The translations under genes were made by a program, and so were the position numbers. A stretch of 64,000 nucleotides of DNA from Rhodococcoides kyotonense (lineage in GTDB: Bacteria; Actinomycetota; Actinomycetes; Mycobacteriales; Mycobacteriaceae). The DNA lies in the NCBI RefSeq assembly GCF_900188125.1, contig NZ_FZOW01000014.1:62001-126000 (forward strand), in the 5' to 3' direction. Positions 13,335 to 25,482 of the stretch are shown here, in pieces. Positions within the stretch are counted from its first letter, which is position 1. Each line of letters begins with the position of its first letter. The notes under the pieces are model-generated. The model did no database searches. It saw only the letters and a program-made list of their open reading frames with translations, and was not told the origin of the DNA.

Positions 13335-14549
13335 CTAGTACTTGCTCCCTTCGGGAAGCCGAATCGGGGGTGTGGACGGCCGTGTCGGAGTCTGCTCGTC
13401 GTCGCGCTCGACATCAGCCGGGTCGATCGCGAGTCGATAACCTCGTTTCACCACTGTCTGAATCGTTTTCGGAGCGCCGAGCGACGACCGAAGCCGCGTC
13501 ATGGCGGTCTCGACGGCGTGTGTGTCGTCGCCACCACCGGGCAACGACGCGAGTAGTTCGTCGCGCGAGACGACTTTCCCTGGCCTGCGAGCGAGGGTCT
13601 TGACCAACGCCATCCCTGCGGGCGACACGGACCGCACGGTGCCGTCGACGACGACGCATCGACCCCGAACGCTGATCGTGTGCCCGCCCGCGTCCATCGG
13701 CCTCGCCCGACGCGGCAGCTCCTCGGCGATATGCCGAGCCAGCGCACCGAGACGCGCACGGGCAGGCTGCGTCGTCGGGACGTCCAGTTCTTCGAGAGGC
13801 GCCGCCGTCACCGGGCCGACGCACACGGGCAGCACCCGTGTGCGCAGCGACTGCAACAGCGGTTCGAGAACGCCGTTCTCATGGGCGCGCATCAGCAGTG
13901 AGGCCACCGCAGGGGCGCTGGTGAAGCTGATGGCGTCGAGATCGCCGACGACGACCGCTTCGATCATGCGGTCCATCGGCGTGCCGTCGTCGGGTGCCGT
14001 CCAGCGATACACGGGGACGGGTACGACCTCGGCGCCCGCGTCACGCAGGACTTCGCAGAAGTCGGGCACCGGCTCCCATTCGGTCGTTGCCCCGTGCAGT
14101 TGCACGGCGATGCGCTTTCCGCGCACACCCTCGTCCAGCAGATGTTCGAGGACTTCCGCGGAGGATTCCGACGCAGGAGACCACTCCTCGCGGAGGTCCG
14201 CCGCCCGGATCGCGCCCTTCGCCTTGGGACCGCGCGCCAACACCCTCGACGACGCCAGCGCACGCCCCAGACTTTCCGCCTGCCCCCAGCCGTCGGCCGC
14301 TTCGATCCAGCCTCGGAATCCGATTCCGGTTGTGGCGACGGTGATTTCGGGGGGCTCGGCGATGATGGCCTCGGTGACGCGTTCGAGTTCCGCGTCATCC
14401 GCGAGCGGGATGATCCGAATGGCCGGGGCATGCATCACCGATGCACCCCGACGCTCCAGCAACGTGGCGAACTCTTCAGCGCGCCGCGACGCTGTGACCC
14501 CGACGGCGAACCCTGCCAGAGGCGACGTGGCCTCGGCGGCTTCGCTCAT
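13335..14549 (-). CDS. nnaR: HemD-like/winged-helix transcriptional regulator (NnaR type)
   Basis: 404-residue fusion of a uroporphyrinogen-III synthase-like domain (about residues 10-265, starting LAGFAVGVTASRRAEEF) and an OmpR-type winged helix (about 295-385; GKVVSRDELLASLPGGG, then AVETAMTRLRSSLG and VVKRGYRLAID). Proteins of this architecture (NnaR in Streptomyces and Mycobacterium, Rv0260c) co-activate nitrate/nitrite assimilation genes with GlnR. The HemD part may sense a tetrapyrrole precursor; that is inference. The ATG at 14549 gives ATGA overlap with nirD, better than an upstream in-frame start inside nirD. Confidence 0.85.
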   Translation of the reverse strand: MSEAAEATSPLAGFAVGVTASRRAEEFATLLERRGASVMHAPAIRIIPLADDAELERVTEAIIAEPPEITVATTGIGFRGWIEAADGWGQAESLGRALASSRVLARGPKAKGAIRAADLREEWSPASESSAEVLEHLLDEGVRGKRIAVQLHGATTEWEPVPDFCEVLRDAGAEVVPVPVYRWTAPDDGTPMDRMIEAVVVGDLDAISFTSAPAVASLLMRAHENGVLEPLLQSLRTRVLPVCVGPVTAAPLEELDVPTTQPARARLGALARHIAEELPRRARPMDAGGHTISVRGRCVVVDGTVRSVSPAGMALVKTLARRPGKVVSRDELLASLPGGGDDTHAVETAMTRLRSSLGAPKTIQTVVKRGYRLAIDPADVERDDEQTPTRPSTPPIRLPEGSKY

Positions 14550-14953
14550 GTCGTCGCGCCCCGCACGAAGATCACGCCGCTCGTCACCTTGGTCTCGAAC
14601 GAACCGAGGCCGACTGCCTCGTCGTCGAGGCAACGGCCGTCGACCAGTGAGAAGACCTGCTTGAGCAGAGGCGAGGCGACAGTGGGTTCACCGGCACGGT
14701 CTCCCACGAGCCCCCGGGACATGACAGCTGCCCGACCGAACGGGTCGATGTTCCCGACGGCGTGCAGTTCCCCACCGGGAAGCATGAACAACGCGACCTG
14801 CGTGCCTCCACGCAGGAGCACCGCGACGCCTCGGCCGGGCACCAGTGTGTCGATCGCGCACGCTGCCGTCCATTCACGGGCAGAGTGCGTCCCGATCTGA
14901 TGAGCAGACTGCGTGGTCCGGTCCGCGCTGGTTCGAGTATCGATGACAGTCAT
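14546..14953 (-). CDS. nirD: Nitrite reductase [NAD(P)H] small subunit NirD
   Basis: 135-residue Rieske-like-fold small subunit of cytoplasmic assimilatory nitrite reductase. The fold shows as VPGRGVAVLLRGGTQVALF, then HAVGNIDPFGRAAVMSRGLVG and VFSLVDGRCLDD. It lacks the iron-sulfur cysteines and histidines of true Rieske proteins, as is normal for NirD. Translationally coupled to nnaR downstream and 107 bases from nirB upstream; that gap holds no further gene. Confidence 0.92.
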   Translation of the reverse strand: MTVIDTRTSADRTTQSAHQIGTHSAREWTAACAIDTLVPGRGVAVLLRGGTQVALFMLPGGELHAVGNIDPFGRAAVMSRGLVGDRAGEPTVASPLLKQVFSLVDGRCLDDEAVGLGSFETKVTSGVIFVRGATT

Positions 14954-15060
14954 GACGTACCTCCTGGTGCTATTGCACGTTGCCGATGTTTCTTCGTCGT
15001 TAAGCGGCCATTACTGCGGTGTGCACATGCGATCAGTTCCTGCAGTGCGTCGATGACAGG

Positions 15061-17556
15061 TCACGCACCCACGCGCGGCATCCCCATCAGCACGGGCACC
15101 TTGCGCGAGCCCGAGTCGTCGAACGAGATCGTCGGATCCGCTTCGTCCGGTGCGTTCACGAAGGACACGAACCGTCCCAGCTTCTCCTCGTCCTCGAGCA
15201 CGCCGGCCCACTCGTCCTTGTACCCGGCCACATGGCGCTCCATGTCCGCTTCGAGCTCGGCTCCGATTCCGAGACTGTCCTCGCAGACGATTGCCTTCAG
15301 GTGATCGAGACCGCCGTCGAGCGATTCGAGCCACGGCGCCGTCCGCTGCAGGCGGTCGGCGGTCCGTACGTAGAACATCAGGTAGCGGTCGATGTAGCTG
15401 ACGAGTGTCGCGTCGTCGAGGTTCGACGCCAGCAGCTGTGCATGCTTCGGCGATTGGCCTCCGTTGCCTGCGACGTAGAGATTCCATCCACCTTCGGTCG
15501 CGATGACACCGACGTCTTTGCCGCGCGCCTCTGCGCATTCACGGGCGCACCCGGACACGCCGAACTTGATCTTGTGCGGCGACCGCAGTCCGCGGTAGCG
15601 GTTCTCGAGGTCGACGGCCATGCCCACCGAGTCCTGCACTCCGTAACGGCACCAGCTCGATCCGACGCAGCTCTTGACCGTGCGCAACGACTTGCCGTAC
15701 GCCTGGCCGGACTCCATGCCCGCGTCGACGAGTCGTTTCCAGATCGCAGGTAACTGCTCGACGCGAGCGCCGAACAGGTCGATGCGCTGGCCGCCGGTGA
15801 CCTTCGTGTACAGCCCGAAGTCGCGAGCGACCTCGCCGATCACGATGAGCTGCTCGGGTGTGCACTCTCCACCCGGCATCCGCGGCACCACCGAGTAGGT
15901 GCCGTTCTTCTGGATGTTGGCGAGGAAGTGGTCGTTGGTGTCCTGCAGCGACGCCTGTTCGCCGTCCAGGATGTGATCCGACGACGTCGACGCCAGGATC
16001 GACGCGACGACAGGCTTGCAGATGTCGCAGCCGGTTCCCTTGCCGTACTTGGCGATCAGTGACGAGAACGTCCGAGTGTTCGTGGCACGCACGATCTCGA
16101 ACAACTCGGCGCGGGACTGAGAGAAGTGCTCGCACAACGACTTCGACAACACGACACCGGATGCGGCGAGGAGTTGCTTGATCGACGGGAGGCAGCCACC
16201 ACACGTCGTGCCTGCGGTGGTGCAACTCTTCACCGATGCCAGATCGCATGCACCGTCGGCGATGGCACCGCAGATCGCACCCTTGGTCACGCCGTTGCAC
16301 GAGCAGATCTCGGCGTCGTCCGGTAGTGCACCGATCCCGACCTGCTCGGCGGCCGGTGAGATCAACGAGCCGGGATCGCCGGGCAGTTCACGCCCGACGA
16401 GCGGACGCAGCAGGGAATAGGCGGTCGCGTCGCCGACGAGGATTCCGCCGAGGAGCGTCTTCGCGTCGTCGGACACGACGAGTTTGGCGTAGGTGCCCTT
16501 CGGCGCATCGCTGAAGACGACCTCGAGCGCGCCCGGCGTTGCGGCCATCGCGTCGCCGAAACTCGCGACGTCGACGCCCATGAGCTTGAGCTTGGTGGAC
16601 ATGTCGGCGCCCGGGAATTCGGCTGCACCCCCGAGCAATCGGTCGGCGACGACCTCGGCCGTCGAATATCCGGGCGCGACGAGTCCGTAGCAACGACCTT
16701 CGACGGCCGCGCATTCACCGATGGCGTAGATGTCGTGATCCGCTGTGCGGCAGCCGATGTCGACCATGATGCCGCCGCGCTCACCGACGTCGAGACCGCA
16801 GTCCCTGGCCAATTGGTCCTGCGGCCGAACACCCGCCGAGAACACCAGGAGTGCGGCGTCGATGACCGAGCCGTCCGACAGTTCCACCGACAGACCGGCA
16901 CCGTCGTTCTCCGTGATCGACGACGTTCCGACGCCCGTGTGCACGTGCAGTCCGAGATCGGTGACGAGGCGGGCCAGCAGCGCGCCACCGCCCTCGTCGA
17001 CCTGAAGCGGCATCAGACGCGGCGCGAACTCGACGACGTGCGGCGTCATGCCCATCTTCTTCAGCGCGTTGGCAGCTTCGAGGCCGAGCAATCCGCCACC
17101 GACGACCACGCCGACCGCGCCCGGGCCTGCAGCATCCGCCCGAGCCCGGATTTGGTCGAGGTCGTCCAGGGTGCGGTAGACGAAGCAGGCGTCCAGATCG
17201 TGGCCGGATATCGGCGGCACGAAAGGGTAAGAGCCCGTGGCGAATACGAGCGCGTCGTAGTCCACGATGTCACCGGCCGACGTCGCGACCGTCTTCGCCG
17301 TGCGATCGATGCTGTCGGCCCGCACCCCGATCCTCATGTCGACGGCGCTGTCACCGAGATAGTCGTTGCCCGCGAGCGCGAGTTCCTTGTGATCCCAGGC
17401 CCCGACATAGGACGACAGACCGACGCGGTCGTAGGCCGGCAGTGCCTCCTCGCACAGCACTGTGATTTTCCAGTCGGTCCCTTCGTCGCGAGCGCGCAGC
17501 GCCTCCACGAACCGGTGACCGACCATTCCGTGTCCTACTACCACCGCGTTCTTCAT
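15061..17556 (-). CDS. nirB: Nitrite reductase [NAD(P)H] large subunit NirB
   Basis: 831-residue siroheme enzyme reducing nitrite to ammonium with NAD(P)H. Domain order: FAD-binding oxidoreductase with GHGMVG (residues 8-13) and second Rossmann loop GGGLLG; a BFD-like [2Fe-2S] domain with CSCNG and CTTAGTTCGGC; the nitrite/sulfite reductase ferredoxin half; and the catalytic domain with the 4Fe-4S/siroheme cysteines 630, 636 (CVGSSWC), 670 and 674 (GCAREC). The start at 17556 gives the expected MKNAVVVGHG N-terminus; 67 extra in-frame residues upstream look non-coding. Operon order narK-nirB-nirD. Confidence 0.95.
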   Translation of the reverse strand: MKNAVVVGHGMVGHRFVEALRARDEGTDWKITVLCEEALPAYDRVGLSSYVGAWDHKELALAGNDYLGDSAVDMRIGVRADSIDRTAKTVATSAGDIVDYDALVFATGSYPFVPPISGHDLDACFVYRTLDDLDQIRARADAAGPGAVGVVVGGGLLGLEAANALKKMGMTPHVVEFAPRLMPLQVDEGGGALLARLVTDLGLHVHTGVGTSSITENDGAGLSVELSDGSVIDAALLVFSAGVRPQDQLARDCGLDVGERGGIMVDIGCRTADHDIYAIGECAAVEGRCYGLVAPGYSTAEVVADRLLGGAAEFPGADMSTKLKLMGVDVASFGDAMAATPGALEVVFSDAPKGTYAKLVVSDDAKTLLGGILVGDATAYSLLRPLVGRELPGDPGSLISPAAEQVGIGALPDDAEICSCNGVTKGAICGAIADGACDLASVKSCTTAGTTCGGCLPSIKQLLAASGVVLSKSLCEHFSQSRAELFEIVRATNTRTFSSLIAKYGKGTGCDICKPVVASILASTSSDHILDGEQASLQDTNDHFLANIQKNGTYSVVPRMPGGECTPEQLIVIGEVARDFGLYTKVTGGQRIDLFGARVEQLPAIWKRLVDAGMESGQAYGKSLRTVKSCVGSSWCRYGVQDSVGMAVDLENRYRGLRSPHKIKFGVSGCARECAEARGKDVGVIATEGGWNLYVAGNGGQSPKHAQLLASNLDDATLVSYIDRYLMFYVRTADRLQRTAPWLESLDGGLDHLKAIVCEDSLGIGAELEADMERHVAGYKDEWAGVLEDEEKLGRFVSFVNAPDEADPTISFDDSGSRKVPVLMGMPRVGA

Positions 17557-17623: not shown

Positions 17624-19102
17624 TCAGACGGCGACGGTGGCGTCGGCCCCTGCGACGACCCGCGGCTTGCGCAGGTACACAGCCCAGGTGACGGCGCAGC
17701 AGACGACGTAGAAGGCGAGGAAGACCCAGAAGGCCGTCGTGGCCGATTTGGCCTCACCGGAGTACGAGGCGCGCAGCACCAGGTTGATGCCGACGCCGCC
17801 CAGAGCGCCGATGGCGCCTGCGATTCCGATCAGTGCGCCGGACATCTTGCGCGACCAGTGCTGCTGCTCGTCGATCGTCATTCCCTGCAGTTCGGTCGAC
17901 TTCGCGGCGAAGATCGCGGGGATCATCTTGTAGACCGAACCGTTGCCGAGGCCGGACAGCAGGAAGAGCAGGATGAATCCGACGACGAAGAGCGCCATCA
18001 TCGTTCCGCTCGCGGCGCCGGCCGTGTTGTCGTCCCACGTGCTTGCCGCGACGAGGATGCCGGTCGAGAAGACCATCGCGACGAACGTGTAGAGCGTGAT
18101 CTTGCCGCCACCGATCTTGTCGGCGAGCTTGCCGCCGAACGGACGCGAGATGGATCCGAGAAGCGGTCCGAGGAAAGCGATCTGAGCTGCGTGCAGCGAA
18201 GCCTGTGCCTGCTGCGCGGCGGTCGCGGGGGCGCCGTCGGTCAGTCCGGCGAGGAAGTTGATCTGCAGAACCTGCCCGAACGCGAAGCTGAATCCGATGA
18301 ACGAGCCGAACGTACCGATGTAGAGGAAGGCGATCCACCAGGAATCGGAGAAGCGGAGCACGTCGATCATCGAGCGGCCGTTGGTCTTCTGGTTCTCGAG
18401 GTTGTCCATGAACAGTGCCGCGCCGACGGCAGCGATGGCGATGAAGACGAGGTATACGGCACAGACGATTTCGGGTGCCGTGTTGCCGATCGTCGCGATG
18501 ACGAGCAAGCCGATCAACTGGATGACCGGTACGCCGATGTTGCCGCCGCCCGCGTTCAGCCCTAGCGCCCAACCCTTTTCACGCTGCGGGTAGAACGCGT
18601 TGATGTTGGTCATCGACGACGCGAAGTTGCCACCACCGAGACCGGCGAACGCGGCGATCACGATGTACGTGGTGTACGACGCCGGATTCATCATGAAGTA
18701 CATCGTCAGAATCGTCGGTACGAGTAGGACGAGAGCGCTGAAGATCGTCCAGTTGCGTCCGCCGAACTTCGCCGTCGCGAAGGTGTACGGGATACGCAGA
18801 ATGCCACCGACGAGGGTGGGTACGGCGACGAGGAAGAACTTGCCCGCCGCGTCGATGCCGTACACCGACACCGGCATGAACAGCACCATGACCGACCAGA
18901 TGGACCAGATCGAGAATCCCACGTGCTCGGCGACGACGGACCAGATCAGGTTGCGCTTGGCGATGGCCTTGCCGCCGCCTTCCCACGCCTCGACGTCCTC
19001 GGAATTCCAGTGGGTGATGCGATGGTTGATCGACACGGGAACTGTGCCCGGTGATGCAGGAGAACCCGGCACCGCGGATTCTGTGTGGGAAACGCTGGTC
19101 AC
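17624..19102 (-). CDS. narK: Nitrate/nitrite MFS transporter (NarK/NasA family)
   Basis: 492-residue, roughly 12-helix MFS transporter. Diagnostic NarK glycine-rich stretches are visible: GLGGGNFASSMTNINAFYP and, in the second half, GLGNGSVYKMIP. It imports nitrate and/or exchanges nitrite across the plasma membrane. As first gene of the operon it feeds NirBD. The start ATG at 19102 has a purine-rich GGAGG-type site just upstream on the minus strand. The upstream 176 bases before the 19279-19318 hairpin must contain the operon promoter. Confidence 0.92.
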   Translation of the reverse strand: MTSVSHTESAVPGSPASPGTVPVSINHRITHWNSEDVEAWEGGGKAIAKRNLIWSVVAEHVGFSIWSIWSVMVLFMPVSVYGIDAAGKFFLVAVPTLVGGILRIPYTFATAKFGGRNWTIFSALVLLVPTILTMYFMMNPASYTTYIVIAAFAGLGGGNFASSMTNINAFYPQREKGWALGLNAGGGNIGVPVIQLIGLLVIATIGNTAPEIVCAVYLVFIAIAAVGAALFMDNLENQKTNGRSMIDVLRFSDSWWIAFLYIGTFGSFIGFSFAFGQVLQINFLAGLTDGAPATAAQQAQASLHAAQIAFLGPLLGSISRPFGGKLADKIGGGKITLYTFVAMVFSTGILVAASTWDDNTAGAASGTMMALFVVGFILLFLLSGLGNGSVYKMIPAIFAAKSTELQGMTIDEQQHWSRKMSGALIGIAGAIGALGGVGINLVLRASYSGEAKSATTAFWVFLAFYVVCCAVTWAVYLRKPRVVAGADATVAV

Positions 19103-19171: not shown

Positions 19172-19187
19172 GTGACTTGACGGTGAA
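19172..19187. promoter_or_regulatory. Weak candidate GlnR-type site upstream of narK
   Basis: GTGAC TTGACG GTGAA lies about 75 bases upstream of the narK start. The actinobacterial GlnR consensus is roughly GTNAC-N6-GNAAC; the first half-site fits and the second has two mismatches. Supporting context is only the expected GlnR/NnaR control of nitrite genes. Confidence 0.25.
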
Positions 19188-19278
19188 ATCTCGCTCACCA
19201 ACCGCATTTGCCCGAAGTGAGACGGTTGTGGACCACGTCGGAGCTACGCGAAACCGCAGGCAGAGGCCCTATACGACG

Positions 19279-19318
19279 AAAAAGGAGTAGTTCGCCGATG
19301 GGCGAAATACTCCTTTTT
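19279..19318. terminator. Bidirectional intrinsic terminator between ycnI and narK
   Basis: Near-perfect hairpin: arms AAAAAGGAGTA and TTCGCC pair with GGCGAA and TACTCCTTTTT around a GATG loop, with one unpaired base in each arm. It has A/T tracts on both sides, so it can act in either direction. It lies 20 bases past the ycnI stop and closes the six-gene envelope operon before the narK promoter region. Confidence 0.88.
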
Positions 19319-19338
19319 CCGGGCGATCCGGTCGGACT

Positions 19339-20022
19339 TCAGCTCTTGCGGTTACGCACCACCGCGAACGCGCCGCACCCCAGTGCGAAGACTGCGACCA
19401 CAAGCGCCACTCCAGCCAGGATCGTAGCCCCCGAGTCGGTGTGGTCCATCTCCATCGCCGAACTCTCGGCGGTCGACCCAGTCATACCGTGTTCGTCGGA
19501 TCCGGCGACCGCCGCGGCGAGTGTCAACGTGGGCGCCGGATACTGAGGTTCGTCTCCGCCCTCCGGTGCTTCCTCGATCCAACTCACAACCTCACCGTCG
19601 GAGTACGTCTGGAGGAACTTGAACGTCATCGTCGGTGCCTCAGGAAGCGGGCCGGCCGAGATGTCGAACTCGGCGAATTCCCCGGCGAGTATTCCTGGGC
19701 CGGCTGCAGTCCACACGACGCGATCGACGACCTCGGAGGCGGCGGAGTCACCCGTCGGGGAGGACTTGATCACCTCGTAGTTCCACCCAGTAACAGGCTT
19801 GACTCGAACGGACGCCAGTGGAGCGTCGGACGGCATTGCAAGCTCGACCACGGTGGTCGGCACGTCCTTTTCGTTCGGTACTCGGAATGTGATTTTCGTG
19901 TAGCCACCTTGCGTTGCATCCGGCGCGTAGGCCGAGATGTGCGCGGTCGCAACGCCGGCCATAGGCCCCAGCAGCATCACTGCGGCTGCGATTGCGGCGC
20001 CGATCAATCGACGTGCCTTCAT
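19339..20022 (-). CDS. YcnI-like (DUF1775) copper-binding membrane-anchored protein
   Basis: 227 residues: signal peptide (residues 1-27, cleavage after GVATA), a DUF1775 domain beginning at His28 (HISAYAP), a linker, and a C-terminal membrane helix (about 200-222) followed by RNRKS. In B. subtilis YcnI the mature N-terminal histidine binds Cu(II); the same His is exposed here. ATG at 20022 is chosen over MNHK at 20049 because a GAGGAG ribosome site precedes it. Last gene of the operon, 23 bases after copC-copD, before the terminator. Confidence 0.85.
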   Translation of the reverse strand: MKARRLIGAAIAAAVMLLGPMAGVATAHISAYAPDATQGGYTKITFRVPNEKDVPTTVVELAMPSDAPLASVRVKPVTGWNYEVIKSSPTGDSAASEVVDRVVWTAAGPGILAGEFAEFDISAGPLPEAPTMTFKFLQTYSDGEVVSWIEEAPEGGDEPQYPAPTLTLAAAVAGSDEHGMTGSTAESSAMEMDHTDSGATILAGVALVVAVFALGCGAFAVVRNRKS

Positions 20023-20045
20023 CGAAACTCCTCGTGTCTTGTGGT

Positions 20046-21782
20046 TCATCGGATACGAACAGTGAAAAGTGTTGTCGTCGCGTCGATATCGCTCGTCTGA
20101 GTTGTTACGGCCAACTGCCACAGGCCAGGTACCGGTAACGTCACGCCCGCCACCTCGTAGTGACCGGGGCTGGTGGCGGCTGCCTCGACAGGCACCAGAT
20201 ACTCCCCCGACTCCGAAGTCCAACGCGCGCCGACACGGACCGGATCGACGGTAGCGCCGGCTTCGGAGTAGACAAGGCTCATCGAATTGACACCGGTCCG
20301 TGCAGGATTCACTCCGACGACGACCGAGATGCCGTCGGAGGCCGGCCCGGTCTGTTCGAAAACCGGGAAATACGTGTCCTTGGCAGGCGTGGTCGCCACC
20401 AGCACCGCCGTGATCGCGACGACCAACAGTGAAACACCCGACTCCAGGGCAATCCTCCATCGCAACGGCCGAATGTCGATTCTCCCCACACCTGTGTCGT
20501 GGTCACCTGGCGTGGACGCTTCGAGATCTCCGGTTGCGGCGTTCCCTCCCACCATCGCGTATTCGGGCACCGTTTCGGCAGACCGAATTGGATAGTGGTG
20601 ACGTATCCACCATCTGGCGCCTGCGCCCAGCAGCACCATTGCCACCACGAGAGCGAGCTTGATCAGCAGTAGCTTCCCGTACTCTGTCGACGTCAAGGCC
20701 CCGAGTTCGCGTACCTGTCGCCACGCGGTGAACGATCCCGATACGACAAGCACGAGGATCGACACCGCCGCATATCTGGACCAATTCGGCAACAAGACTG
20801 TCAGAGTCGACGTTTCGGATGGCCGAAGCAGTACCACCATCATCACAAGCCCGCCGAGCCACGCGGACGCTGCGATCAGGTGCAGGACGTCTGCCGGCAG
20901 AGCCAGGTCTACCAGCTCGCCCGCACCAGCATGCCCCACAGCTGACACCGTCAGCGACAGCGGGACAACCGCCACGACTGCACCGAAGATTCCCAACCGC
21001 ACAAGGCGCACACGGCGCACCACGAGGACCAGGGTCAGTGCGAGAAGAGCGAGGCGCACGATGGATACCACTCCGAACCTGGTCCCGAGTACCGGTCCGA
21101 ACAGCGAAGTATCGAACACCGTTGACAATGGAGTTCCAGCGGTGAACGGCCCCTGAAGCAACAACCCTGCGACAGTCGCGGTCACGGCGAGCACCCACCC
21201 GAACACCAGAATGCGGTGGACCACATGGGACCTTCTGCCCTCGCGCCACAATATGGTGACGAACATCAATCCGCCGAGCAACAGAATCAGTCCCACGAAC
21301 AGTGTTCCACGGGCTATGTCGAGCAACCGCGCGGCGCCGACACCTTCGGACTCCTGCGCGGAGGCGGCATCCGAAGCCGCTGTAGCGCTGACCTCGCCGA
21401 CACTGAATGTCGTTGCGCCGAATATGGAATGGGTGTCCTCACTGAGCACCCTCCACAGGACGGTGTATGTCCCGGTTCCCAAAGTCAGCGGTAGCGGGGC
21501 CACGACCACACGACCTTCGTCGCGGGTCGTGATTTCCCCGAGTTCCACCCTCGATCCGTCGGGCGCGAGCACTTTGACTGCACCTGAGGAAATGCCGACT
21601 GCTTCGTCGTATCGCAGCAACATTTCACCGGGCGAGTCCGCCAGTACGGTCCCTTCGCCCGGAAGCGCCTCGAGCAGAGTCGCATGCGCCGATGCCACGG
21701 CAGGCCAACCGATCGTCAGCGCGAGGGAGATCCAACCGAGGACTAGAATCCTGAGCCATCGACGGCTCTTGCCGGAATTCAC
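20046..21782 (-). CDS. CopC-CopD fusion: copper-binding domain plus copper transport membrane domain
   Basis: 578 residues. A signal peptide ends AVASA, so the mature protein starts at His33 (HATLLEALPGEG). The CopC domain includes a later D116-T-H118, giving the His1/Asp/His Cu(II) ligand set known in CopC. From about residue 165 to 440 a CopD-type domain has eight or so membrane segments (LLDIARGTLFVGLILLLGG, HLIAASAWLGGLVMM). A C-terminal soluble domain (YcnJ-like) follows a final helix near 468. GTG start at 21782 overlaps the DUF305 stop (GTGA). CopD/YcnJ relatives import copper. Confidence 0.88.
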   Translation of the reverse strand: MNSGKSRRWLRILVLGWISLALTIGWPAVASAHATLLEALPGEGTVLADSPGEMLLRYDEAVGISSGAVKVLAPDGSRVELGEITTRDEGRVVVAPLPLTLGTGTYTVLWRVLSEDTHSIFGATTFSVGEVSATAASDAASAQESEGVGAARLLDIARGTLFVGLILLLGGLMFVTILWREGRRSHVVHRILVFGWVLAVTATVAGLLLQGPFTAGTPLSTVFDTSLFGPVLGTRFGVVSIVRLALLALTLVLVVRRVRLVRLGIFGAVVAVVPLSLTVSAVGHAGAGELVDLALPADVLHLIAASAWLGGLVMMVVLLRPSETSTLTVLLPNWSRYAAVSILVLVVSGSFTAWRQVRELGALTSTEYGKLLLIKLALVVAMVLLGAGARWWIRHHYPIRSAETVPEYAMVGGNAATGDLEASTPGDHDTGVGRIDIRPLRWRIALESGVSLLVVAITAVLVATTPAKDTYFPVFEQTGPASDGISVVVGVNPARTGVNSMSLVYSEAGATVDPVRVGARWTSESGEYLVPVEAAATSPGHYEVAGVTLPVPGLWQLAVTTQTSDIDATTTLFTVRIR

Positions 21783-22450
21783 AGCGATCCCAGCATCGCC
21801 TGCATGACTGCGATCTCGGATGTCTGCGAGTCCAGAACCTGCTGAGCGAATTCCTTCTCCTGCTCGTTGATTCCCTCGGCCAAAGCATTCATGGCAATCG
21901 GCAGAACGGCCTGATGATGCTCGATCATGATCGTCAGAAACTGCCGATCGAACACTGTGCCAGTCAACGGAATCAACGTCTCGGCTGTTGCTGCCTCCGA
22001 GGTGCCTGCGCTGTGATTGTGGCCCGATACCGACGCCGGATCGGTCGAGGGAACGGGTTGCCCCCATGCGATCGCGATTTCGGACACACGCAGATACCGC
22101 GTGCTCGTATCTGCATCGATCGACGCCGCGAGATCCTTCACCTGCTGGCTGGCAGCCTGCGTCTCTGCCAGAGCTGCCATCTGGCTGGCAACCGCGTCAT
22201 GCGGAGTGATCCACGAGATCATGTAGGTGTCCCAGCCGTTGTACTCGGTGGAGATACCGTTCACCATCGGTGCGCCATTGCCCGGTGGAACGATGCAGCA
22301 CACCTGCCCGACGATGTCCTGGCCGGTCCCGTCCAGGACTGCAGGGGTGTCCTCACCTGACGAGCACCCACCGAGAACGAGCACGACGCCGACGGCGGTC
22401 GCCGCTGCGCGTCCGCGGCCGAAGGACGAGACATTGCGAAATGTGGACAC
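21779..22450 (-). CDS. DUF305 lipoprotein (putative copper-binding helical bundle)
   Basis: 223 residues. A type II signal peptide has lipobox LGGC (Cys29). Two DUF305-like halves are present: a degenerate first one (ISWITPHDAVASQMAALAE) and a clear second one (DRQFLTIMIEHHQAVLPIAMNALAEG, shown in pieces: DRQFLTIMIEHH at 169-179). His178/179 and several methionines (175, 187, 216, 219) are potential metal ligands, as in cyanobacterial CopM, a copper-binding DUF305 protein. HNH at 144-146 and Cys51-Cys52 are further candidates. Translationally coupled to copC-copD. Confidence 0.85.
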   Translation of the reverse strand: MSTFRNVSSFGRGRAAATAVGVVLVLGGCSSGEDTPAVLDGTGQDIVGQVCCIVPPGNGAPMVNGISTEYNGWDTYMISWITPHDAVASQMAALAETQAASQQVKDLAASIDADTSTRYLRVSEIAIAWGQPVPSTDPASVSGHNHSAGTSEAATAETLIPLTGTVFDRQFLTIMIEHHQAVLPIAMNALAEGINEQEKEFAQQVLDSQTSEIAVMQAMLGSL

Positions 22451-22487
22451 GTCCGGTCAACTCCTCATTGCTGGCAGGCACGACATT

Positions 22488-22994
22488 TCAGTTTCCCGAG
22501 TAGTCGACTGAACCGGATGGATTCCATACTGCTTCGGCGCCTGCTTCACCTGTCTGGACGGTCAACACGACGACACCTACCGCTACAACGGTGACCACGA
22601 AGGCCGAAACGATCCCGATCACCGCGTTTCCGGTACGCCCGACAACGACCGCCACGGCGAGAGACACCGCGAACAACACGAGCGATGCTATGAACAACCG
22701 ACCGCCCAAGGCTGCGTGACGGTCGACGATCTCGCCGGTGATATTGCCTTCCAACTGGGCTGCGATCGAGCGCTGCAACACCTCACCGCTCTCCTTCGTG
22801 AGGTAGACCGCAACGACGGCGACAGCCGACAACACCAGGAATGGCCAACGTGCGAACTTCCGCCACCGTGGAACCCACACAGCGAGTCCCGACACCGCTG
22901 CAAGCGGTGCAGCGATGACCGCCAGGTGAAGCACCAGTACATGCACCGGAAGCCCATTGAACATTCCGAACACTTGATTCCACTCCTCTGTCAT
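22488..22994 (-). CDS. DUF2231 four-helix membrane protein
   Basis: 168 residues with four predicted membrane helices (about 16-40, 50-66, 98-118, 122-146). The family signature is visible as GLPVHVLVLHLAVIAAPLA in helix 1 and the HAALGG loop at 93-98. His18, His23 and His93 are the only well-placed histidines and could ligate a heme or metal. DUF2231 proteins are often encoded beside, or fused to, Rieske proteins, which is the case here (Rieske gene immediately upstream). An electron-transfer anchor role is inference. Start ATG 22994. Confidence 0.8.
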   Translation of the reverse strand: MTEEWNQVFGMFNGLPVHVLVLHLAVIAAPLAAVSGLAVWVPRWRKFARWPFLVLSAVAVVAVYLTKESGEVLQRSIAAQLEGNITGEIVDRHAALGGRLFIASLVLFAVSLAVAVVVGRTGNAVIGIVSAFVVTVVAVGVVVLTVQTGEAGAEAVWNPSGSVDYSGN

Positions 22995-23041
22995 TGATTG
23001 TGCGTCGCAGGACTTTCTGCTATCCGCGCGATGAGAGCCGA

Positions 23042-23512
23042 TCAGCCCAGTGAAATCGCGCCACCGGAGACGGTGACGACTTTCTCCGGTAGGGGCTCGG
23101 TCGCCGGACCCTGGAGCACCGAACCGTCGGTGAGCGAGAACTTGCTGTTGTGGCAGGGGCAAATCATCGCGCCGTCCTCGATCGAGGAGATCGCACAGCC
23201 CTGATGGGTGCATACCGACGAAAAGGCCTTGTAACTACCGGAAGTCGGCTGAGTCACGACCACCTCCTGATCCTTGAAGATCACGCCGCCGCCAACGGCA
23301 ACGTCGGCGGCCGACCCCAGAGACACGGGACCATCCGCGGCCTCGGTCGGCACCGCACCACCGATACCGGCAGCCTTGGTAGACGTCTCAGCCACGGACG
23401 ACGAGTCACCGCCGCCACACGCTGCCAGCGTTACGGCTGCCGCTGCGCCTGTTGCCGCAACTACGCTGCCGCGCAGGATTGTTCGACGATCAAGGCTGTT
23501 CATGGTGTTCAT
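23042..23512 (-). CDS. Exported Rieske [2Fe-2S] lipoprotein
   Basis: 156 residues. The N-terminus has a Tat-like twin arginine (DRRTILRG, residues 8-15) and lipobox LAAC (Cys32), so it should be folded and cofactor-loaded before export and then lipid-anchored. The Rieske cluster motifs are complete: CTHQGC (Cys101, His103, Cys106) and CPCHNSKF (Cys118, Cys120, His121); Cys106-Cys120 would form the usual disulfide. It is likely a one-electron carrier on the outer face of the membrane, placed between the propeller and DUF2231 genes. Confidence 0.92.
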   Translation of the reverse strand: MNTMNSLDRRTILRGSVVAATGAAAAVTLAACGGGDSSSVAETSTKAAGIGGAVPTEAADGPVSLGSAADVAVGGGVIFKDQEVVVTQPTSGSYKAFSSVCTHQGCAISSIEDGAMICPCHNSKFSLTDGSVLQGPATEPLPEKVVTVSGGAISLG

Positions 23513-23569
23513 TGGTGATTCCCTTCGAATTGTTCGGTGACATTTGTACGCTCGCGGAGGTGAGCGGGC

Positions 23570-24796
23570 TCAGGAACCATTGGACAGATCCTGGCCGGGA
23601 GTCGGGGTCCCGAAGGCGGAGTACGGCACGAACTGAATCTCGTGCGGCATTGCCTCCGTTGGAATCTCGGCGACAAGCTGCCCTGTCTCGGTTTCCCATA
23701 CCTGGACGCCCTGCACCGGTTCACCCGCGAGTAGGAACGGATAGCGCTCCGTGTCCATACCATGATTGAGCGTCCACAACTCCTTGCCGTCCGGACTGAG
23801 TCCGGTGTGCGCTGGAATTACTGTGCCCTTCGACTCCCACACGGTGGAGTAATTCTCGGTGTCCACCTTGTAGATCAAGTTGTCCGCGGTCGTTATGTAC
23901 ACGAACCTGTTGTCCGGACTCGGGCTGATATGGATGGGATTGCCTGGGATAGGCAGCTTCTGGACGATCTCCAGTGTTTTCGCGTCGATGACCCAGACCT
24001 CCTTGAAGGCCTGTCCTGCCAGCCAGACGTGCTTTCCGTCGGCGGTGAGATTCACCCCGTGCGCCGAGCCCGGAAGTGGAATCTGCTTTGCAATTTCGTT
24101 CGTCGTAACATCGATCACAGCAAGAGTTTTCGCACCGTCGACAGTGACGAACATGTACTGAGTGTCGATGGCCTGGCCCTCCCAGTACATGCTCGGCGAG
24201 ATGTAGTCGGGGCCCTCGCCGACGTCCAATGTCTTGACCTTCGTCATTGTCGCTATGTCGATGACGTCGAGCGTTGCCGCGTATTGATTCGCGACGTACA
24301 TGAATTTGTCGTCGGGAGTCAGCGCAATGTGATGAGATCCCTTGCCCGCGTCCACACGTGCAACTTCTCGCAACGTCAGCGGGTCGTACTCGATCACTGT
24401 CGACACGTCGTAGTTGAACCCTACGGCCGTGAACATTCGCTTGAAGTCCTTCGTGAACACGATGGCGTGCGAATCCCTGACATTGGGGTATTTGTCCGGC
24501 TCGGTCCGTTCGTTGAATGGCCCTTCGTTGGTTATTGCTGTGACCAACTTGTGGGAACGCGCGTCGATGATCATCAGTTTGTTGGCCTGTCCGCCACCGA
24601 TGACCGCAATACCCGCCCATCCGAGAACTCCACCGGCGTTTGCGACATCGGTGAATGCCGGCGCAGTCGGCGTTTCTGCCGCGCCATCATCACCCGATGT
24701 GGAACACGCTGCGAGAGCGACCATTCCCGCAGCCCCTGCCGAGCCCGCAAGGAAGCGTCGGCGGCTGGGCAGGCCAGCTGGAGCGAACTTCTTCAT
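23570..24796 (-). CDS. Tat-exported beta-propeller lipoprotein with a histidine ring
   Basis: 408 residues. A Tat signal SRRRFLAGSAGAAG (11-24) ends in lipobox LAAC (Cys31). The rest is a YVTN/YncE-type propeller with blades of about 40-50 residues, for example ALTPDDKFMYVAN and LSPDGKELWTLN. Histidines recur just before the blade strand in six blades: His110, His155-His156, His246, His289, His330 and His385, seven in all; the blade near residue 199 lacks one. NosZ and cytochrome d1 use propeller histidines to hold cofactors, but there is no CuA domain and no CxxCH heme site, so no enzyme name is given. First gene of the six-gene operon. Confidence 0.85.
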   Translation of the reverse strand: MKKFAPAGLPSRRRFLAGSAGAAGMVALAACSTSGDDGAAETPTAPAFTDVANAGGVLGWAGIAVIGGGQANKLMIIDARSHKLVTAITNEGPFNERTEPDKYPNVRDSHAIVFTKDFKRMFTAVGFNYDVSTVIEYDPLTLREVARVDAGKGSHHIALTPDDKFMYVANQYAATLDVIDIATMTKVKTLDVGEGPDYISPSMYWEGQAIDTQYMFVTVDGAKTLAVIDVTTNEIAKQIPLPGSAHGVNLTADGKHVWLAGQAFKEVWVIDAKTLEIVQKLPIPGNPIHISPSPDNRFVYITTADNLIYKVDTENYSTVWESKGTVIPAHTGLSPDGKELWTLNHGMDTERYPFLLAGEPVQGVQVWETETGQLVAEIPTEAMPHEIQFVPYSAFGTPTPGQDLSNGS

Positions 24797-25482
24797 TCTG
24801 TTCCTCTTTCAAGGGAATTCAGTCGGCGCACATGGAGAGACGACTGATAGTTGAGGGATTCCGAAGACGGGCGACCACTCCGATAGTCGTGAACGGCACG
24901 CCACAAGGCCCTGGTCGGACAAATGCAATGTTCAACAACATTTGTTTCGCTAGGCGGCCGAGTTGGAGTCGTTCAGGTTAACTTCCGCATACATGAAGCA
25001 GAACCGAACCGTGAGAATCGACGTACTCGAGCCACGAAACATACTTTCGCGCAGTCTTATTCAAGATCTGTGAGAGTTTCTTGACAAAACGGAAACACAG
25101 GAATGCAAGTAAAGTAACTTTGCCGACCGAACATGCCGCACATCCACGCAAGCTGCTGGCATCCATGGATTCATCCGTCGAAACAGCGCTCGAAGCGCCG
25201 GCGACATTTCGCGAATACCATGAGTGTGGCCTTGGGCCGCAGGACAACTGGCGGTGTTGTTCACCACTAGCGCCGGCCTCCGTGCCGCGAGTCACGGGCC
25301 GTCATGCCGTCCTCGAGACGCTGGCCACCCGGCAGTTCGACGACGACGCGGCGCAATCGACATTTGTTGCGACAATTGCCGCCCGGGCAACCAAGCAATC
25401 GCGAATCACCGAGGACGAAAAGCTCACGTTCACTCGGTAGGCAGCGTCGATTCGACAAATTCGACGAGACAGGTCGGCGACG
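24797..25482. other. AT-richer intergenic region upstream of the envelope operon
   Basis: 686 bases between the propeller gene start and the MFS gene stop. Visibly poorer in G+C than its surroundings between about 24920 and 25125. It must contain the promoter for the six-gene minus-strand operon. I see an inverted repeat at 24927-24942 and a small palindrome AAAGT-A-ACTTT at 25111-25121. Open frames on either strand here have no recognisable family features or ribosome sites, so no gene is called. Confidence 0.6.
24927..24942. promoter_or_regulatory. Inverted repeat, candidate operator of the envelope operon
   Basis: AATGTT-CAAC-AACATT, a perfect six-base repeat with a four-base spacer, about 130 bases upstream of the propeller start. 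No CsoR-type GC-rich copper operator was seen in this interval. Confidence 0.4.

Follow-up and report, generated by a model that had tools for sequence, protein, structure and literature searches.

A seven-bladed propeller lipoprotein from Rhodococcoides kyotonense with histidines arranged much as in nitrous-oxide reductase: a candidate compact multicopper enzyme

To our knowledge, few enzymes hold a multinuclear copper cluster in a beta-propeller, namely nitrous-oxide reductase (NosZ), L-NosZ and thiocyanate dehydrogenase (TcDH). The stretch of Rhodococcoides kyotonense DNA analysed here (64,000 nt, the window) raises the question of whether a further design of this kind exists. One of its open reading frames, with an ATG start, encodes a protein of 408 amino acids, P0001, for which an initial annotation made from the sequence had pointed out seven histidines at the blades of an exported propeller and had suggested a metal cofactor in the propeller tunnel. 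The best reading is that P0001 is a compact multicopper redox enzyme, in which about three or four copper ions would be held by histidines from six blades and electrons would be fed by a partner (a probability of roughly 0.65), its design being a sister to those of NosZ, L-NosZ and TcDH. Copper binding, ion number and catalysis are what we infer from the evidence given below. P0001 is not NosZ, because the CuA domain is missing.

P0001 contains ten histidines, which are the seven initially listed (His110, His155, His156, His246, His289, His330 and His385, all of them at the positions given) together with His82, His256 and His345. In the AlphaFold model, the innermost strands of the blades, picked by hand from the DSSP list, start near residues 111, 154, 199, 248, 287, 328 and 386. 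All seven listed histidines are found at most 2 residues from one of these starts, so the claim that they stand at blade-strand starts agrees with the predicted model. The same is true of the claim that six of the seven blades contribute and that one of them gives a pair (HH), since the blade near 199 is empty and one blade carries His155 and His156. The positions within 2 residues of the starts number 35 of 376, and 7 of the 10 histidines fall among them (hypergeometric P = 3e-6); the value is 4e-5 when 3 residues are allowed and weaker (P = 0.014, only 3 of the 10 histidines) when 1 residue is allowed.

Relatives of P0001 were found at 13 loci in the genome_contigs scan: Nakamurella endophytica and 12 Bacillota (Mesobacillus, Neobacillus and Bacillus), of which one is partial. 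When aligned, the Nakamurella protein is 71% identical to P0001, and the 11 full-length Bacillota proteins are 50-54% identical to it. In the alignment of the 13 full-length sequences (P0001 and 12 orthologues, the partial one being left out), H82, H110, H155, H156, H246, H289, H330, H345 and H385 are invariant and H256 alone varies. This invariance of 9 of 10 histidines compares with 124 invariant columns among all 338 of the propeller (P about 7e-4, with some near-duplicates among the sequences: four Bacillota pairs are at least 90% alike, so that the effective number of sequences is smaller). The partial orthologue keeps the four histidines within its span. The conservation check put forward in the initial annotation thus gave seven invariant histidines across 12 full-length orthologues from two phyla. 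As a control, 14 weakly similar propellers were aligned pairwise and have histidine at a maximum of three of the nine positions, four of them sharing the trio 110, 155 or 156, and 330. Partial histidine sets therefore appear, at the level of sequence, in a wider group of YVTN lipoproteins.

In a structural search with the predicted model, the top match was a generic YVTN propeller (1l0q) and the next 27 matches were all nitrous-oxide reductases; the comparison with NosZ structures that had been proposed at the outset consequently makes NosZ the foremost structural family, preceded by a single generic propeller. The fold of TcDH is also similar, NosZ being better by about 5 Z units. In the predicted model, P0001 resembles NosZ of clades I and II in its seven blades, six of which give seven histidines while the counterpart of blade IV is empty, in the single HH pair and in a colinear fold match; both are exported. 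However, it lacks the CuA domain, the lysine at the cluster is replaced by His345, the propeller is compact (about 340 residues, the C-terminus of the protein being the end of the propeller) and, among the 11 genomes of the P0001 family, NosD is absent in 5 and NosL in 9. No cupredoxin (CuA) domain was matched by Pfam in P0001 or in the 4 scanned orthologues, and this, together with the length and the lipobox, bears out the description of P0001 as shorter than NosZ, lipid-anchored and devoid of CuA.

Regarding export, the N-terminus of P0001 has an RR signal followed by the lipobox, and the Pfam TAT model is weak on it (16.8 bits, below the cut-off of 22.7). The initial annotation had assumed Tat export with the cofactor loaded before export, which does not extend to the whole family: the lipoprotein signals of the Bacillota orthologues, read by eye, have no RR pair, and loading before export cannot therefore be a general requirement.

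The best NCBIfam match of P0001 is NF052460, the model of L-NosZ, which He et al. in 2025 reportedly described as the clade III lactonase-type N2O reductase. The score is 107.4 bits against a cut-off of 700, and two NCBIfam NosZ models are faint (26 and 17 bits). NF052460 is also best for 3 of 4 scanned orthologues, a PQQ-associated propeller model being ahead in the other (L017, 119 vs 100 bits). The orthologues score 99-120 bits, all below the cut-off, and these values exceed those of control propellers L044-L046 and L080 (72-94 bits), yet they are not in a class apart. The match of P0001 stops at model position 321 of 480, whereas NosZ matches in the orthologue genomes reach 479. Sequences above 700 bits were absent from the searched sets of 1, 10, 299 and 396 genomes. 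Apart from this, the YVTN propellers L080, L044, L045, L046 and L013 have histidines at two or three shared blade positions and are possibly metal-binding; L080 ends in a Met-rich tail, and L046 contains an insertion rich in His.

P0001 resembles L-NosZ in its lactonase-type propeller. The available part of PMC11033732 describes lactonase-type NosZ-like proteins, probably of the same clade as L-NosZ, that keep the cupredoxin domain, one such genome having nosDFLYX; P0001 differs from them in having no cupredoxin domain and its genome in having no NosD. Likeness to TcDH extends to the copper propeller, the Tat signal, cytochrome c as partner and copC/copD neighbours in some hosts. A Parageobacillus lipoprotein, AOT13_18635, consists of a propeller matching the N2OR copper domain entry and a C-terminal cytochrome c-like peroxidase domain, and is mentioned in one sentence as a possible copper recipient (available part of PMC13068155); compared by description only, it probably belongs to the P0001 family. 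No relative of P0001 was found in a scan of viral contigs, and generic propellers and WD40 proteins were among the 50 matches listed by a BFVD fold search. In the literature searched, mainly open text, no account of the seven-histidine family or of its Rieske operon was found, nor any of the Rieske/DUF2231/DUF305/YcnI combination.

How closely the histidines follow the CuZ site of NosZ depends on the alignment. The CuZ ligands are H132, H133, H181, H323, H378, H429 and H490, blade II giving two and blade IV none (PMC11573801, as far as its available part goes). When the profile of the 13 sequences was aligned with 9 Bacillota NosZ (prob 97, P 4e-11), H110, H155, H246, H289, H330 and H385 coincided with six ligand columns out of seven; the remaining column, that of the second histidine of the NosZ pair, was occupied by A111, and H156 was extra. 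A plain alignment with 25 NosZ, which include L049, left out of the smaller set, differs, with shifts at blades II/III and VII: HH155/156 stands on the NosZ pair and H246, H289 and H385 are kept, but H110 is unaligned and H330 falls on Gln. With histidines changed to alanine in both profiles (25 NosZ), five match ligand columns exactly, H330 being displaced by 4-6 positions, although Ala-Ala matching remains possible. With histidines masked as X (25 NosZ), four stay in place in the global alignment, and the local alignment (prob 76) is displaced by whole blades. H345 is opposite the NosZ lysine of the LNK motif in 8 of 8 plain and Ala-masked runs.

Counted along the blades of the model, H110 precedes HH155/156, whereas in NosZ the pair precedes the single histidine (blades of NosZ from the available part of PMC11573801), and this predicted order would favour the first register. 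It is concluded that P0001 probably follows the same blade scheme as NosZ with the HH pair one blade later. The NosZ-like set of seven histidines proposed initially is thus retained as to its six blades and single pair, and amended as to the blade of the pair, despite the pairing of HH with HH in the 25-NosZ alignment.

The surroundings of the gene are those of a copper-handling operon, as had been noted initially: genes for Rieske, DUF2231, DUF305, CopC-CopD and YcnI proteins, recognised by Pfam, follow on the same strand (Table 1), the junctions ranging between an overlap of 4 bp and a gap of 68 bp when three gene starts are chosen by eye. The order of the six genes is identical in Nakamurella, where the Rieske orthologue also adjoins the propeller. 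In both actinobacteria the propeller protein stops after the propeller domain, and a gene for a Rieske lipoprotein with intact ligand motifs comes next. On the other hand, C-terminal CxxCH and GMMP motifs are present in every Bacillota orthologue (11 full-length, one partial), and Cytochrome_CBB3 of Pfam is above its cut-off in 3 of 3 scanned. The Rieske protein is a probable electron partner of the propeller, and CuA would be replaced by the fused cytochrome c in Bacillota or by the adjoining Rieske protein in the two actinobacteria. The DUF2231 protein might be a haem b or quinol link, because two histidines of its first helix are common to the Nakamurella counterpart, and the DUF305 lipoprotein is a probable copper chaperone.

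Table 1. Features of the propeller locus in the window
Feature	Position	Strand	Remarks
Inserted module, approximate extent	19177..25477	.	None of the six genes at the narK-cynX site of the 7 congeners examined
Seven-bladed beta-propeller lipoprotein (P0001), RR signal and lipobox (cysteine 31)	23570..24796	-	Seven His at innermost-strand starts; invariant His82 and His345
Rieske [2Fe-2S] lipoprotein	23042..23512	-	Pfam Rieske 49.1 bits, cut-off 20.3; CTHQGC and CPCHNS intact
DUF2231 membrane protein	22488..22973	-	GTG start by eye; Pfam 28.5 bits, cut-off 26.4 (longer ORF)
DUF305 lipoprotein, distantly CopM-like	21779..22450	-	Nakamurella orthologue 51%
CopC-CopD fusion, copper binding and transport	20046..21782	-	GTG start by eye; longer ORF scanned; Nakamurella 45%
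YcnI (DUF1775) protein	19339..20022	-	ATG start by eye; Pfam 121.8 bits (longer ORF); Nakamurella 52%

Copper genes stand beside the propeller in the own genome and at 4 of the 13 orthologue loci (L024 judged by eye). In Mesobacillus selenatarsenatis CopC-CopD and YcnI are directly upstream, and a P-type ATPase with two HMA domains is near the propeller at L022 and, by eye, at L024. At the other 9 loci, that of Neobacillus niacini AT2.8 included, no copper-handling gene was recognised directly beside the propeller, Pfam having been run on part of the neighbours. A DUF1541 lipoprotein lies 2-7 kb from the propeller in two Bacillota loci (L021:5683-6318 and L024:517-1122).

On this basis, the active site would be extracytoplasmic, a copper cluster at the mouth of the propeller with H110, H155/H156, H246, H289, H330 and H385 as ligands and with H345 in the place of the active-site lysine of NosZ. 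Electrons would bypass CuA: in the two actinobacteria they would arrive by way of the Rieske protein, which DUF2231 might connect to quinol, and in Bacillota through the fused cytochrome c, while DUF305, CopC-CopD and YcnI would supply the copper. The substrate may be N2O, a pseudohalide or another small molecule, which is a guess. The cofactor suggested for the tunnel is, as a CuZ-modelled site, a well-supported inference from the invariant histidines, their strand starts, the NosZ fold, one six-ligand alignment and the copper genes, once the Tat loading and the blade of the HH pair have been corrected. With regard to its chemistry, TcDH has a sulfide-free multicopper centre. NosZ, NosD and NosL were all absent from 5 of the 11 genomes (own, Nakamurella and three Bacillota), and NosL was found in 2. 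A NosDFY-dependent cluster is for this reason unlikely in those five, where a sulfide-bridged CuZ is doubtful, and this argues for a sulfide-free multicopper centre in a NosZ-like ligand frame, which by analogy P0001 probably has.

Among the other explanations, a genuine nitrous-oxide reductase of another type, in which a CuZ-like cluster converts N2O to N2 and CuA is replaced as electron source by the Rieske protein or cytochrome c, would accord with the six ligands in register in one alignment, the lead of NosZ in the fold list after 1l0q and the L-NosZ matches. Of the 10 orthologue genomes searched, 6 have both NosZ-type matches (L-NosZ model) and NosD, and the other 4 have neither; in that of Neobacillus niacini AT2.8, nosZ and nosD end some 7.6 kb and 5.5 kb upstream of the propeller, respectively. 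Nevertheless, this reading is unlikely: the five nos-less genomes, the replaced lysine and the presence of two such enzymes in the NosZ-bearing genomes speak against it, as does NirK, which is not above its cut-off of 296 bits in any of the 11 genomes (186-193 bits in four Bacillota, 48 in the own genome). A bolder version, an independent kind of N2O reductase consisting of a single CuA-less propeller wired to Rieske or fused cytochrome c, whose cluster is built without NosDFY and NosL by a mobile DUF305/CopCD/YcnI module, is still more speculative. It is equally hard to favour an oxidising enzyme like TcDH, with a tricopper site that takes electrons from a small anion to the Rieske protein or cytochrome c; the points of likeness listed above stand, but NosZ is structurally closer, and the adjoining CynX-type transporter belongs to the genus backbone, outside the module.

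That P0001 stores, senses or delivers copper for its operon without catalysis is improbable. Its neighbours are copper-handling proteins, related YVTN lipoproteins carry partial histidine sets, and a propeller metallochaperone does exist, the zinc protein AztD, likewise extracytoplasmic and metal-binding (available part of PMC6689063). However, without redox chemistry there would be little reason for a fused cytochrome c or an adjoining Rieske protein. AztD itself has eight blades and ligands other than those of NosZ (same source), and a zinc chaperone of its type was set aside because its NCBIfam model gives P0001 17.4 bits, far under the cut-off of 400. Very improbable, finally, is an ordinary YVTN or cd1/NirF-type propeller whose histidines are not a metal site. 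P0001 does pass the Pfam cut-offs of YNCE, Cytochrom_D1 (43.6 bits, cut-off 25.5, the best stretch covering residues 220-283 only), DUF5074 and Lactonase, and its top fold match is generic, but the invariance of the histidines across two phyla, their strand-start placement and the 14-propeller control are against it; a plain YVTN or lactonase propeller was discarded on the invariance and the control.

P0001 is a rare protein. In 151 genomes of its family (searched at E 1e-20) and 394 of its class (at E 1e-40), the own genome was the only one with a match; of 396 genomes of its phylum, four more gave matches, each of them with 28-31% identity (E 1e-15 to 1e-17). In 7 congeners, taken from 11 others with a narK match, the flanking narK and cynX genes are present with none of the six module genes between them. 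The GC content of the module is 60.6% vs 64.9% for the window, and at third codon positions (GC3) it is 0.69-0.74 vs 0.78-0.86 in four flanking genes. Because of the rarity in relatives, the absence of the module from the narK-cynX site of the congeners and the lower GC3, the module, about 6.3 kb long, is read as an insertion gained by horizontal transfer. A functional connection with the CynX-type transporter and NarK was set aside, since both co-occur without the module in the 7 congeners. NarK is thus genus backbone here, yet it also adjoins the module in Nakamurella: narK comes after the copper module in both genomes (window 17624-19102; L015:15142-16518, about 1.5 kb past YcnI, from 13616 to 15142). 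At the same narK-cynX site, a different insertion of roughly 3.4 kb that lacks the module genes is present in one congener (L091:2131-5515).

A NosZ ligand layout without CuA, and in 5 of 11 genomes without NosD and NosL, would help to separate the parts of NosZ that are essential for the cluster, and it makes testable whether a cluster forms in a NosZ-like frame without NosDFY. If the family reduces N2O, it would escape surveys based on NosZ or L-NosZ models, being far below the L-NosZ cut-off and devoid of CuA; and if the independent kind of reductase set out above were real, bacteria without nos genes could consume N2O.

Two further gene arrangements were observed. In genome G534, NosL, an ABC ATPase, a permease, a second NosL and NosD are clustered (L104:5122-9213), with no NosZ in the stretch read; the cluster resembles that described for Parageobacillus in the available part of PMC13068155 and may be a copper loader for the propeller-cytochrome there. 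On an Aureimonas plasmid (L010:4624-6407), a DUF305 gene has a propeller gene immediately after it, which is a second propeller-DUF305 pairing.
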